IMG/VR virus record: IMGVR_UViG_3300049218_000504
Span: 1 to 30,638 of that record
Origin: a virus
DNA length: 30,638 nucleotides
Reading direction: 5' to 3' (one strand)
Shown: piece by piece, positions 2,433 to 30,638 of the stretch
Position numbering within the stretch: position 1 is the stretch's first letter
Layout of the letters: each line of letters begins with the position of its first letter
Notes under the pieces: model-generated
Databases searched by the model: none
Seen by the model: only the letters and a program-made list of their open reading frames with translations
What the model was told of the DNA's origin: nothing
Made by a program: the position numbers and the translations under genes

Positions 2433-3368
2433 ATGCATCCGAATTTACTCCATGTGGTCACCTGCATTTCCAATCCGCTGCGTTGGAAAAGCCGGATCGA
2501 ACTCTATAAGAAATTTGCGCGGCATATGGTGGAGAGCGGCGTTCGGCTCACGGTTGTTGAATGTGCGCTGGGTGAGCGCCCATTTGAGCTGTCCGGTGAT
2601 CCGCTGGTTGATTTTGTCGGCGTTCGTCATTCCACGCTCACCTTTAACAAAGAATGCCTGTTGAATATTGGTATTCAGGATGTCGTGCGGCGCGATCCCG
2701 ATGCGCAATATATTGCGGTTCTGGACGCGGATATCCGGTTTCGAAATCCATGCTGGGCCGTTGATACGGTACATGCGCTGCAGCGCTTCGAGGTGGTGCA
2801 GGCCTGGGTAGATTGCTACGATCTGGGGCCGAATGGGCAGCACCTGGAGTTGCATCGCTCGTTTGGCAGGATCTGGCAGGACCAGCAGCCGCTTGTGCAA
2901 GGGCCAAATGCGAAGCAGGGACCTTATCGGTTCGGTCATCCGGGCTATGCCTGGGCTTGGCGCCGGAGCGCTTTGGCGACAGTTGGCTTGTTGCCGGAAA
3001 CCGCTGTATTGGGTGCGGCCGACCACCACATGGCAATGGCATTGGTGGGCCGCGTGAAGGATTCCATTCCAGGCAATCTTGCGGCCGGATATGCCGAACC
3101 GTTGATCAGGTGGCAGGATCGCGCGGCACGGCTCGGTTGCAATTTGGGCTCAGTTCCGGGGACCATCGAACATCACTTTCACGGATCGAAGCAGAAGCGC
3201 CGCTATGTCGAACGCTGGGATATCCTTCATAAATGGCATTTCGACCCCCAACACGACCTGATCAAAAATGAATTTGGCGTGGTGGAGCTGGCCGGCAACA
3301 AACCCGGCCTGCGCATGGATATTGAGCGCTATTTCTCTGAACGCGATGAAGACGCAAACTCGCTTTAA
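2433..3368 (+). CDS. Glycosyltransferase, GT-A fold (family 2-like)
   Basis: The 311-residue protein shows a nucleotide-sugar transferase layout. An N-terminal strand-helix start (LLHVVTCISNP) leads to a metal-binding DAD motif at residues 98-100 (YIAVLDADIRF). A middle segment FGHPGYAWAWRRSAL and an acidic LGAADHHMA motif follow, and then HGSKQKRRYVERW with clustered histidines and basic residues. There is no signal peptide or membrane segment, so it should act in the cytoplasm. The substrate cannot be read from sequence; plausible targets are a phage structural protein or a host surface-glycan precursor. It lies between the small and large terminase genes on the same strand, so it is carried as cargo in the packaging module. 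Its stop codon touches a large palindrome. Confidence 0.8.
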   Translation: MHPNLLHVVTCISNPLRWKSRIELYKKFARHMVESGVRLTVVECALGERPFELSGDPLVDFVGVRHSTLTFNKECLLNIGIQDVVRRDPDAQYIAVLDADIRFRNPCWAVDTVHALQRFEVVQAWVDCYDLGPNGQHLELHRSFGRIWQDQQPLVQGPNAKQGPYRFGHPGYAWAWRRSALATVGLLPETAVLGAADHHMAMALVGRVKDSIPGNLAAGYAEPLIRWQDRAARLGCNLGSVPGTIEHHFHGSKQKRRYVERWDILHKWHFDPQHDLIKNEFGVVELAGNKPGLRMDIERYFSERDEDANSL

Positions 3369-3464
3369 TGCCGACGATGTTGGGGTTTAACCGATAGCAA
3401 GCAAGTCCAGGGGCAGAGCCCCTGGCCTTCCTTGGCATCAGTCCAACCCCAACATCGTCGGCAT
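3368..3464. repeat. 97-bp near-perfect palindrome (47-nt arms, 3-nt loop)
   Basis: The left arm (3368-3414) and right arm (3418-3464) are both 47 bases and flank the triplet AGA. The outer 20 bases of each arm are perfectly complementary. The inner 8 bases (CCAGGGGC / GCCCCTGG) are also perfect, and by my count 40 of 47 positions pair in total. The element begins at the last base of the glycosyltransferase stop codon and ends about 45 bases before the large terminase start. It has no T-run, so it is not a standard terminator. The symmetry fits a REP/MITE-like dispersed element, and CCAGGGGC-type hairpins are, to my recollection, frequent in Acetobacteraceae intergenic DNA. Confidence 0.9.
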
Positions 3465-3509
3465 AAGCGCCGGTTGTGCTCGCTTGCGGTTACCTGAGAT
3501 GAGGTTTGA

Positions 3510-26898: not shown

Positions 26899-27387
26899 AT
26901 GGCCAATTATACGGATGCTCAGATTGAGCAAGCGGAGGAGGTTGCGCTTTCGATCGCGAAGCCGTTTGAGGGCTTTGAGCCAAATCCGTATCCCGACCCC
27001 GGGACCGGGGCGGAACCTTGGGCGATCGGGTTTGGATCCACGCATGATGCCAGCGACAAGCCGGTGACACCCCAAACGCCGCCCATTGCCTTTGGTGAGG
27101 CCTGCGATCTTGCGATGCGGGATATGTATCGGGCGTTCCAAGCGATTGCGGGCGAGATTGCGGCGCCGATGACGGTGCATGAAATTGCTGCCGTGATGGA
27201 TTTCGTTTATAATGTCGGCGCGGGAAACTTTAAAAACTCGACGTTATTGAGACTGATCAACTTGAAGCAATATGCGCTGGCGGCGCAGCAGTTTGAACGT
27301 TGGGACGAGGCCGGCGGGAAGGTGATGGCAGGGCTTCTGCGGCGTCGCTTGGCGGAGGAACAAATTTTTGAGACCAAGGACGGTTAG
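26899..27387 (+). CDS. Endolysin, phage-type lysozyme (GH24)
   Basis: The 162-residue muramidase cuts peptidoglycan between MurNAc and GlcNAc. The catalytic triad can be placed: Glu24 (FEGFEPNPY), Asp33 in YPDPG, and Thr48 in GFGST. The E-to-D distance of 9 matches T4 lysozyme, while the D-to-T spacing is longer because of a GTGAEPWAI-type loop typical of alphaproteobacterial GH24 enzymes. The C-terminal domain has GAGNFKNSTLLR and VMAGLLRRRLAEEQIFE, another family signature. There is no signal or SAR anchor at the N-terminus, so release depends on the holin. A 117-base gap without a gene separates it from the o-spanin. Confidence 0.93.
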   Translation: MANYTDAQIEQAEEVALSIAKPFEGFEPNPYPDPGTGAEPWAIGFGSTHDASDKPVTPQTPPIAFGEACDLAMRDMYRAFQAIAGEIAAPMTVHEIAAVMDFVYNVGAGNFKNSTLLRLINLKQYALAAQQFERWDEAGGKVMAGLLRRRLAEEQIFETKDG

Positions 27388-27624
27388 CGCGTAAACCTCC
27401 TCGGTCGCGGCGATGCGGCCTTCCCTGGCCCGGCGGTTGCATGACTGCTGCTGCCGGCGTGGGGTTTCTCGGCATACTCTGCCTTAAGGATGCCTTGCAG
27501 CGGGATCTGGCGAAGGTAGACTGCCAACGGCCATATTGAGTATTTTTGGTTCTTTGTTTAACCGTGAGTCCTGCAGGCAAGCGGTTTTAAGCATGGCCGA
27601 AATAACCATGAAGGCAGGCAGGAA

Positions 27625-28164
27625 ATGTCCAGTTCCCCGCGCATCCCCTATCCCGATAACGCCCCGGTCCCGCCAGGTGCGCTGAATGTCGAACGCATGT
27701 TTTTCCACATGCCGCCCGACCTTCTCTCCGGCTTCGGCGCCTTCGCCCAATCCGTCATGGCGACCAAGGCGCTTGACCCGTTATTGCGGGAGCTTGCCAT
27801 TCTGCGGGTAGGGCATCTCTCGAACGCACCTTACGAAATCCATCAGCACAGTGCCTTTGCCCGCCATCTCGGGATGGCGGAGGCTAAAATTGCCGCCATC
27901 GCGATCGGCGCTGATGCCCCGGTTTTCGATACCAGGGAGCGAGCGCTGCTTACATTTGTGGACGAGCTGGTGCTGCGCGTGCGGCCGACGGACGCCTCGC
28001 TTGCCGCCATCCGCGAACATCTCGACCTTCCCGCTTTGTTTGCGCTGATGCTGGCGACCGGCCAATATATGCTGGTCTGCCGTATCCTGGAGACCACGGG
28101 TGTACCCATCGAAGACGAGCCCGGAATCGGCGTCGCCCGCCTCAGCGCGACGCAGCAGCGTTAA
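27625..28164 (+). CDS. Carboxymuconolactone decarboxylase-family protein
   Basis: This 179-residue single-domain protein has the CMD-fold signature LRELAILRVGHLSNAPYEIHQH (about residues 54-75), then FARHLGM and a later SLAAIREHLDLPALFALML segment. The catalytic Cys-x-x-Cys of AhpD peroxidases is absent (N-A-P-Y), so it is nearer to the decarboxylase or other non-peroxidase branch with Tyr70, Glu71, His73 and His75 near the pocket. Its substrate is unknown. GGCAGGAA precedes ATG 27625. Codon use and content are chromosomal rather than phage-like, so the phage region probably ends in the 27388-27624 gap, where I see no further gene. Confidence 0.88.
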   Translation: MSSSPRIPYPDNAPVPPGALNVERMFFHMPPDLLSGFGAFAQSVMATKALDPLLRELAILRVGHLSNAPYEIHQHSAFARHLGMAEAKIAAIAIGADAPVFDTRERALLTFVDELVLRVRPTDASLAAIREHLDLPALFALMLATGQYMLVCRILETTGVPIEDEPGIGVARLSATQQR

Positions 28165-28176
28165 GTGCGAAAAACT

Positions 28177-28240
28177 GGCGCTATCGGACTCACTGCAAAT
28201 CACCGGACAAACACTGCGGGTGGATGGCGGGTCTGGCTGA
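28177..28240 (+). pseudogene. 3' remnant of a short-chain dehydrogenase/reductase gene
   Basis: In the frame ending at TGA 28238-28240 the last codons read ITGQTLRVDGGSG. I-T-G-Q-x-L-x-V-D-G-G is the C-terminal hallmark of SDR enzymes. Nothing upstream in this frame resembles an SDR; the decarboxylase-family gene ends at 28164 in another frame. The remnant therefore marks a deletion or replacement that removed the rest of the SDR gene, perhaps once next to the decarboxylase-family gene. Confidence 0.7.
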
Positions 28241-28270
28241 TCGCCCTTTGGACTTGTGAAAAGCTAGAGC

Positions 28271-28297
28271 GGGCCGGGAGCGATCCCGGCCCTTTTT
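28271..28297 (+). terminator. Strong rho-independent terminator
   Basis: GGGCCGGGA (28271-28279) pairs perfectly with TCCCGGCCC (28284-28292) around the loop GCGA. TTTTT follows at 28293-28297. It ends transcription from the decarboxylase-family gene and SDR remnant. The convergent fasciclin gene lies just downstream on the minus strand. Confidence 0.9.
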
Positions 28298-28353
28298 CCA
28301 TGATGGATGTCGGCTCAGCGGAGCCGAATCCGCCGTCCGATTGCCAATTGCAT

Positions 28354-28935
28354 TTACGGTATTAGGACCTTGTTGACGACCTGAATAACACCATTGGACT
28401 GGTTTACGTCAGCGATGGTGATTTCGGCGGCGTCGCCCTTGCTGTCGATCACTGCAACGGAATCTCCCGACATTTTGAAGGTCAGATCCGGGCCGTCAAC
28501 CGTAGGGAGAGTCGCGGTGCCATTTCCCTTGACGATCAGGGCTTTCAAATCAGCCAGCTCATATTTTCCGGAGAGTACGTGATAGGTCAGAATTTTCGTG
28601 AGCATTGGCTTGTTCTCAGGCTTTAGCAGCGTTGGCACGGTACCGGCCGGCAGTGCGGCAAACGCCTGGTTCGTCGGAGCAAAAACGGTGAACGGGCCCG
28701 GGCCCTCGAGCGTTGGCACCAGTCCGGCCGCTTTGACTGCGGCCACGAGCGTTGTGTGATCTTTCGAATTGACCGCATTTTCAACGATATTTTTGGTTGG
28801 AACCATGGCGGCGCCGCCCACCATGGGGTCGGGACTGGACATGCTGGTGCTGCTCATTGCCATCGATTGCGCCGGCCCGATCGCGGGGATCGCGGCACAC
28901 GCGGCTGACAGTAATAGGATATAAGAAAATTTCAT
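28354..28935 (-). CDS. Secreted fasciclin-domain protein
   Basis: The 193-residue protein has an N-terminal signal peptide (MKFSYILLLSAACAA, cleavage near residue 23). A Met/Ser-rich linker (about 25-45) is followed by one fasciclin (FAS1) domain at about 46-193. Hallmarks are NIVENAVNSKDHTTLVAAV, PGPFTVFAPTNQAFAAL, TYHVLSGK and the terminal GVIQVVNKVLIP. FAS1 proteins of bacteria are periplasmic or secreted, with proposed roles in surface adhesion or stress, but no function can be read here. A good ribosome site AGGAGCG lies seven bases before its ATG on the minus strand. It converges with the decarboxylase-family gene and the terminator at 28271. Confidence 0.92.
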   Translation of the reverse strand: MKFSYILLLSAACAAIPAIGPAQSMAMSSTSMSSPDPMVGGAAMVPTKNIVENAVNSKDHTTLVAAVKAAGLVPTLEGPGPFTVFAPTNQAFAALPAGTVPTLLKPENKPMLTKILTYHVLSGKYELADLKALIVKGNGTATLPTVDGPDLTFKMSGDSVAVIDSKGDAAEITIADVNQSNGVIQVVNKVLIP

Positions 28936-29087
28936 GTTTGGCGCTCCTGCTTGGTGATCCTGGCCCGGATGGGATGGATACGGGAGCTACGCAGAGCCGG
29001 CGCCGGCAGATGCAAAGAGAATTCTTAAAACCGGAAATGCATGGGCCGGGCTTCCAAACACCCCGTTCGCGCACCGCCGAAGCCGCC

Positions 29088-29576: not shown

Positions 29577-29652
29577 TGGCTCCCGAAGTTGGACTCGAAC
29601 CAACGACCGAGCGATTAACAGTCGCTTGCTCTACCAGCTGAGCTATTCGGGA
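29577..29652 (-). tRNA. tRNA-Asn (GTT)
   Basis: On the minus strand the sequence starts TCCCGAA and ends TTCGGGA-G-CCA, giving a perfect 7-bp acceptor stem, discriminator G and encoded CCA. The D arm (AGCTCAGCTGGTAGAGC), the anticodon loop with GTT (GACTGTTAATC) and the T arm (GGTTCGAGTCC) are all present. The total is 76 bases. A well-placed promoter lies just upstream on the same strand. Confidence 0.97.
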
Positions 29653-29692: not shown

Positions 29693-29776
29693 TGCCTTGT
29701 GGCTATGCCAGGACGCCCGGTTTCGGTTGAATTTCGCAATGCCGTCGCGTAGGTCGGAGCTGGCGCTAAACTTTAA

Positions 29777-29821
29777 GCGGGCGTGGTGGAACGGGTAGAC
29801 GCGCCGGCCTCAAAATCCGGT
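29777..29821 (+). pseudogene. 5' half of a tRNA-Leu, truncated after the anticodon arm
   Basis: The segment matches the intact tRNA-Leu at 30208 from its first base through the anticodon arm, with only a few differences, then diverges completely. The differences in the anticodon stem are partly compensatory (CTGG/CCAG in the intact copy, CCGG/CCGG here), so it derives from a functional but different gene copy. One stem position (C opposite T) is no longer paired, and the T arm and 3' acceptor are missing. It is therefore a tRNA remnant, likely an integration-site half. Confidence 0.8.
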
Positions 29822-29892
29822 TTATTGTCAAGAGTTTATCTGGTTTTAACTGTAAGTTCAATGAGTTATGGTAATTTCTCACTCAGGAATTT

Positions 29893-30060
29893 GCCAACAC
29901 ACTTCCTGCACATTTTGAGATTTCTGCGGCACCATTACGCTACAAGGCGCCGATATACCGGCACATCACGCGCTATTAGGGGGGAAAACTTCACGTCTAC
30001 AAGCGTGATAAGGGCCGTTTTTGGCGGTGTCCTGCCTTCTTAGAGGGGAAAAATCTTCGG
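29893..30060 (+). pseudogene. Decayed N-terminus of a tyrosine (phage-type) integrase
   Basis: In one frame the translation gives PAHFEISAAPLRYKAPIYRH, then a stop (TAG 29977-29979). Three codons later comes KLHVYKRDKGRFWRCPAFLEGKNLR, split here only by the stop. The part V-Y-K-R-D-K-G-R-F-W-x-x-x-A-F-L-x-G-K is typical of the N-terminal arm-binding region of alphaproteobacterial phage integrases. The frame loses resemblance after about 30060 and the catalytic domain is absent. It is followed about 150 bases later by an intact tRNA-Leu and preceded by a half tRNA-Leu, which supports its origin from an element integrated at tRNA-Leu. Confidence 0.6.
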
Positions 30061-30168
30061 CGCCCTAGACAATCGACCCCGGTCTCAGAGCGGGACAGGG
30101 GCGTTGGATATTCCAAGTTTGGCCGGGTTAAGGCAAAAAACGAGGGGCCGTGACGGCGTTGCCCTATC

Positions 30169-30197
30169 TTGGCAGCAAGGATGGGCGTCGCTATAGC
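30169..30197 (+). promoter_or_regulatory. Promoter of tRNA-Leu
   Basis: TTGGCA (30169-30174) and TATAGC (30192-30197) are separated by 17 bases, and the tRNA begins 11 bases after the -10 box. Boxes match consensus at five and four of six positions. The spacing to the gene equals that seen for the tRNA-Asn promoter. Confidence 0.8.
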
Positions 30198-30207
30198 AAG
30201 CTCATCC

Positions 30208-30294
30208 GCGGGCGTGGTGGAACTGGTAGACGCGCTGGACTCAAAATCCAGTTCTGGCAACAGAGTGTCGGTTCGATTCCGACCGCCCGCACCA
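30208..30294 (+). tRNA. tRNA-Leu (CAA)
   Basis: The 87-base gene has acceptor arms GCGGGCG and CGCCCGC, discriminator A and an encoded CCA. The anticodon stem-loop is CTGGA-CTCAAAA-TCCAG, giving anticodon CAA (reads UUG). A long variable arm (TCTGGCAACAGAGTG) is present as expected for leucine tRNAs, followed by a T arm with GGTTCGATTCC. A good promoter precedes it. Confidence 0.97.
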
Positions 30295-30552: not shown

Positions 30553-30638
30553 TGTGAATCGGCGTGGAATAAGGACCCCTTTATGGGGGTAATCGGCGTC
30601 CAATAGGGACCCCCATTTTTGGGGTTCACATTGGCTTT
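30553..30638 (+). mobile_element. Left end of an IS21-family insertion sequence (continues past the window)
   Basis: From TGTGAATCGGCGTGGAATAA onwards the sequence has the IS21-type terminal organisation. Two related units, AATCGGCGTGGAATAAGGACCCC (split over 30557-30579) and AATCGGCGTCCAATAGGGACCCCC (30591-30614), are the multiple transposase-binding repeats of the family. The end begins with TG, as in IS21. The istA and istB genes would lie to the right, beyond the window, so completeness and exact identity cannot be judged. Confidence 0.75.

Follow-up and report, generated by a model that had tools for sequence, protein, structure and literature searches.

Organization of the locus

The window, by which we mean the whole stretch of DNA analysed here, is an IMG/VR virus record of 30,638 nt. 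Late genes of a contractile-tailed prophage (terminase, portal, capsid, tail sheath and endolysin) extend up to about position 27387; the left end of this prophage and its integrase fall outside the window. An inverted repeat was noted at 3357-3475, at the end of the prophage reading frame 2433-3368, its 58-nt arms (79% complementary) being separated by a loop of 3 nt. Beyond the prophage, ARAGORN and Rfam identified a tRNA-Asn gene on the minus strand (29577-29652), which marks the locus as a divergent neighbour and, in most members of the genus examined below, adjoins tRNA-Leu(CAA). This shared arrangement makes it probable that the host of the window belongs to the genus of the 38 species compared. 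Since the tRNA-Asn 3′ end borders the prophage in the window (322-27387), in the viral contig IMGVR L179 (1-4330) and in G362 (L247; judged there by the endolysin gene), this tRNA gene is probably the attachment site of the prophage. Carboxymuconolactone decarboxylase-like and fasciclin genes (27533-28938) lie between endolysin and tRNA-Asn and may be either prophage cargo or genes of the locus; the pair also occurs in a related prophage contig (L002, 4-1406, 81% DNA identity) and is missing from IMGVR L179. The end of the window (30555-30638) shares 83-85% identity with short stretches of Defluviicoccus and Methylocystis plasmids, and is probably an insertion-sequence end where the assembly broke.

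All remaining features are on the plus strand. A tRNA-Leu 5′ half of 46 nt (29777-29822), recognized by its similarity to the intact copy and to tRNA-Leu genes of relatives, lies 431 bp upstream of the single intact tRNA-Leu(CAA) called in the window (30208-30294; ARAGORN, and Rfam with 57 bits), with integrase remnants in between. The two copies are 91% identical over 46 nt (self-match E value 5e-10) and head the list of direct repeats in the window. The half, now an orphan, is 95.7% identical to the uninterrupted tRNA-Leu genes of relatives; an exact-match search of viral contigs with it returned no match. It is preceded by the native tRNA-Leu promoter region (29727-29776), with TTGAAT at 29727-29732 where relatives carry a TTGATT-type motif, and this region now stands before the orphan half only. 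The intact gene has a promoter of its own, as originally predicted, consisting of TTGGCA (30169-30174), a 17-nt spacer and TATAGC (30192-30197). A simple promoter scan of the window did not list it because the scan demands T as the last base of the −10 box.

A decayed integrase in the spacer

The original prediction had placed a decayed integrase start between the two tRNA-Leu copies. The peptide GGKLHVYKRDKGRFWRCPAFLEGKNLR (29980-30060; 27 aa), which falls in a reading frame starting at 29821, proved to be 67% identical (7e-13) to a complete integrase found at the same locus in the genome G094, and the corresponding DNA is 72.5% identical over 80 nt. Alignment with G094 and IMGVR L179 showed that the start codon has been lost. 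The alignment of the window with G094 is nearly gapless through the tRNA half, the left arm of the element (29823-29979, also collinear with IMGVR L179) and the first 80 nt of the integrase; it picks up again close to the integrase stop codon and extends across the promoter and the tRNA gene. About 1.1 kb of the integrase middle is therefore missing from the window relative to G094 and IMGVR L179. By alignment with the same two sequences, albeit at low similarity, a probable C-terminal remnant ending in a TGA stop codon (30151-30153) was tentatively placed at about 30085-30153. In the left arm of intact elements, TTACACA direct repeats recur with 11-bp spacing (9 observed versus 0.36 expected in shuffles); degenerate forms are retained in the window at the same register (AACACACTTCCTGCACA, 29896-29912).

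Empty and occupied sites in relatives

DNA searches covered the whole order first, then 38 species of one genus, in most of which the tRNA-Asn/tRNA-Leu locus was found; many of these genomes are probably metagenome bins. A single uninterrupted tRNA-Leu(CAA) occupied the locus in 22 of the 38 species, 88-184 bp from tRNA-Asn and behind a TTGATT-type native promoter. These single-copy genes are the precise empty sites of a tRNA-targeted element. In one further genome, G265, tRNA-Asn and tRNA-Leu are 16.8 kb apart with apparent housekeeping genes in between, which we took to be a rearrangement and not an element.

The complete structure was found at the same locus in one species (G094) and in one viral contig (IMGVR L179), so that both the uninterrupted gene and the full element sought between the copies were recovered. 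It consists of the native promoter and 5′ half, an arm of ~130 bp, a single tyrosine-integrase gene, a TTGGCA-N17-TATAG promoter and an intact tRNA-Leu. In G094, tRNA-Asn is followed after 97 bp by the half (832-882), about 130 bp, a 436-aa integrase, about 50 bp and tRNA-Leu (2375-2461), the element measuring 1,543 bp between equivalent tRNA positions. IMGVR L179 has a G094-like layout of half, integrase and tRNA-Leu, but its integrase is frameshifted; its tRNA-Asn is 100% identical to that of the window, and related prophage tail genes lie on the same side. Elements are thus ~1.5 kb long, with the integrase as sole content.

The same architecture was present at three further loci, in leucine genes reading CAA or UAA, one of them in another genus. 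The first, identical in G382 and G494C53, occupies a tRNA-Leu(CAA) gene not adjoining tRNA-Asn; these two were counted as one since a 9.6-kb stretch is 99.99% identical between them. The second, in G395 and G492C225, occupies a tRNA-Leu(UAA) gene. The third, in G423 (another genus of the same family), lies beside tRNA-Asn and its rebuilt gene reads UAA. These findings bear on an alternative that involves no mobile element, in which part of tRNA-Leu was duplicated in tandem and one copy then decayed. Two direct copies close together are what such a duplication would leave. However, complete integrase elements fill the same interval in relatives, collinear with the spacer of the window, the promoters of the two copies differ and each belongs to the type expected for its class, and the layout recurs at at least five distinct loci, in tRNA-Leu genes of two kinds. 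The presence of integrase elements at this very locus refutes a tandem duplication, which we regard as extremely improbable.

The UAA cases are complicated by introns, because in G395, G492 and G423 the rebuilt gene contains a group I intron or is truncated at one. In G395 and G423 the anticodon loop of the rebuilt tRNA-Leu(UAA) is split by such introns (Rfam RF00028; L164 5905-6110, minus strand, and L178 3005-3184, plus strand). The orphan halves of these two genomes lack the intron of their rebuilt genes, which may have arrived with the element or entered later. A weaker group I match (46.7 bits, below the Rfam cut-off; L285 852-1070) was seen in G382:C35 within an apparent tRNA-Arg(CCU) gene, the classic site of such introns in Alphaproteobacteria. 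The occurrence of introns in these UAA genes raises the question whether the window could hold the remains of a split or intron-containing tRNA-Leu gene, interrupted in the anticodon loop. Rfam gives no intron match in the window, though, and the reading is refuted by the absence of a second 3′ exon (there is one 3′ half only) together with the alignment of the spacer to integrase element DNA; we give it virtually no chance of being correct.

Element origin of the promoter and 5′ end of the rebuilt gene

Promoter types were scored with regular expressions on the 60 nt upstream of each tRNA copy. The TTGATT-type motif precedes the genes of all 22 empty sites and, in G094, IMGVR L179 and the window, also the half next to tRNA-Asn, whereas TTGGCA-N17-TATA precedes every rebuilt CAA gene (G094, IMGVR L179, G382/G494C53 and the window). 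The tRNA sequences split in the same way: position 32 is U in the rebuilt gene of each complete CAA copy, but C in its half and at every empty site. Taken together, the two splits indicate that the element contributed both the promoter and the 5′ part of the gene now in use, as had been proposed; the arrangement is a 5′ fragment upstream of a tRNA gene whose 5′ end is supplied by the element. The U32/C32 split further places the crossover 3′ of position 32, in agreement with the predicted integration in the anticodon region. Identity between half and intact gene ends around tRNA position 46-51, and we infer a crossover interval of roughly positions 33-46.

The copies in the window depart from this pattern in one respect. 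The intact tRNA-Leu there has C32, unlike the U32 of complete elements, and U28-A42; therefore either it came from a donor that differed from the complete elements recovered, or base 32 has reverted. Compensatory stem differences had been cited as evidence that the two copies come from different lineages. One such pair is real (28-42, C-G versus U-A), but the other difference, C at position 31 of the half, disrupts a stem pair and apparently reflects the decay of that copy.

Five other species bear older scars in which the promoter has been swapped, each with TTGGCA-N17-TATA before the gene. In G284 and G292 the half is eroded, the new promoter stands at the gene and the native promoter on the Asn side is still recognizable by comparison with G277; in G491, G501 and G492 the new promoter alone remains at the locus. 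In G382/G494C53 an element-type promoter already precedes the half itself, an arrangement suggesting that integration took place a second time, at a previously swapped site.

An integrase-only element or the scar of a larger island

The tyrosine recombinase gene is present inside the complete elements, the window keeping a remnant only. Its product matched the phrog_1 integrase family (5.9e-30); the match to Pfam Phage_integrase was weak (9e-4, below the cut-off), and the R, LRHT and terminal Y motifs are visible in the alignment. Six integrases from these elements form one clade (support 100/100) relative to integrases found beside tRNA-fMet or tRNA-Glu. For the G395-G492 pair dN/dS is 0.053, and more distant pairs have pN of 0.15-0.18 versus pS of 0.75-0.81. 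Such strongly non-neutral change shows that selection has preserved the gene, consistent with a working recombinase. Related integrases are encoded by four plasmids (50-56% identity) and by none of the phage records at 1e-20. We saw no excisionase gene within the 1.5-kb element.

A second explanation supposes that a large island or prophage lost its cargo and left this scar, the integrase-only form being a common remnant of such islands. Related integrases (50-57% identity) do lie beside tRNA-fMet or tRNA-Glu in longer contigs, a prophage adjoins at tRNA-Asn, and in G094 and G284 this tRNA-Leu gene also serves as the site of conventional islands. Against this, copies whose integrases are only 62-63% identical and which occupy different target genes all place the integrase within about 50-100 bp of the rebuilt gene with no cargo, and their integrase frames are intact and under purifying selection. 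Among the genomes sampled, none had cargo between the half and the intact gene. Element and prophage also occur apart: in G094 the element is present without the prophage, with non-phage genes at tRNA-Asn, and in G362 the prophage endolysin gene lies beside tRNA-Asn while tRNA-Leu is empty. We accordingly rejected the element as part of the neighbouring prophage, and consider the large-island origin quite improbable.

The region is thus very probably the decayed remnant of a ~1.5-kb integrase-only integrative element that targets tRNA-Leu genes. This reading draws on the empty site, the complete element and its architecture, the promoter types, the integrase remnant and the integrase clade, all of which were observed directly. 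The original prediction of an element later mostly deleted holds for the loss of ~1.1 kb, but the element was a 1.5-kb integrase-only one, not a large island.

Proposed course of integration and decay

Comparison of the sequences suggests the following course, in which the mobility of the element, its circular form, the exact crossover point and transcription from the new promoter are all putative. A circle would carry a tRNA promoter, a tRNA-Leu 5′ half, an anticodon-region core, the putative arm-type integrase binding repeats and one tyrosine-integrase gene, into which the element's own tRNA promoter would read. Recombination with a chromosomal tRNA-Leu gene would split that gene, leaving the chromosomal promoter and 5′ half as an orphan at the left end (attL side, 29727-29822) and, at the right end (attR side, 30169-30294), fusing the element promoter and 5′ half with the chromosomal 3′ half to give a working tRNA-Leu(CAA). 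After integration, the chromosomal promoter would point through the orphan half into the integrase, and the element promoter into the rebuilt gene. In the window the integrase appears to have died in place, through loss of its start codon and deletion of ~1.1 kb of its middle. The apparent lack of an excisionase may be the reason why copies decay instead of leaving.

Conventional islands lie 3′ of the same tRNA-Leu in G094 (L228, 3461-16874) and G284 (L229, 1190-8505), each ending in a displaced 3′ fragment. Both encode a 1,934-aa helicase-like protein and a RES-domain reading frame, and that of G094 also carries type I restriction-modification genes; inspection of their reading frames by eye revealed no integrase. 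A broader scheme can be imagined, in which a self-standing family of minimal parasites serially swaps tRNA-Leu promoters and 5′ halves and dies in place without an excision partner, its integrase possibly mobilizing the integrase-less defence islands on the 3′ side through shared att cores. We think this rather unlikely; if true, the working tRNA-Leu of G094 would be an assembly from two different mobile elements.

Relation to known systems

Replacement of the 5′ half had been described as less usual than that of the 3′ half, and a 5′ tDNA fragment is indeed recorded for 159 of 3,919 islands in Islander, which rejects candidates <2 kb (PMC4383910). Those islands share with the present elements a tyrosine integrase, a rebuilt tRNA gene with the displaced 5′ fragment upstream, and a site in the anticodon region; they differ by the 2-kb minimum, as the elements described here are integrase-only and ~1.5 kb long. 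The G094 element (1,543 bp) fails this ≥2 kb length rule, which belongs to the database and not to biology. Conventional tRNA islands and prophages, which restore the 3′ half, use the same chemistry and anticodon sublocation, but there the tRNA keeps its own promoter, unlike the swap seen here. The sister integrases at tRNA-fMet have this usual layout, with an intact tRNA directly upstream of int.

Recombinant bacterial tRNA genes use the original promoter with very few exceptions, and those formed by pTN3-like archaeal integrases acquire a new one (PMC8371274). These archaeal integrases, in tRNA-Leu, resemble the present elements in that the element supplies this promoter; they differ in that the integrase promoter is used and the integrase gene is split on integration, whereas here int remains whole and a separate tRNA-type promoter is supplied. 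Together with the Islander counts, this makes tRNA 5′-end replacement a known but rare kind of integration. The dusA integrases (PMC4482086) likewise use a site inside the 5′ end of a conserved gene, but their target is protein-coding and they are carried by islands or prophages with cargo. In the literature that could be searched we found nothing specific on the integrase-only form or on its decay series. Within that literature, an integrase-only, promoter-swapping family below the Islander cut-off, with a decay series, appears to be a new form.

Because these elements are smaller than the size limit of a standard island finder, the class may be undercounted. A single genus displays the whole series, from the empty and the occupied site through decay and relic to erasure. 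A one-gene, putatively mobile element has permanently replaced the promoter and front half of a working leucine tRNA of the bacterium, and the promoter-swapped tRNA-Leu genes constitute a natural experiment on changing tRNA promoters.
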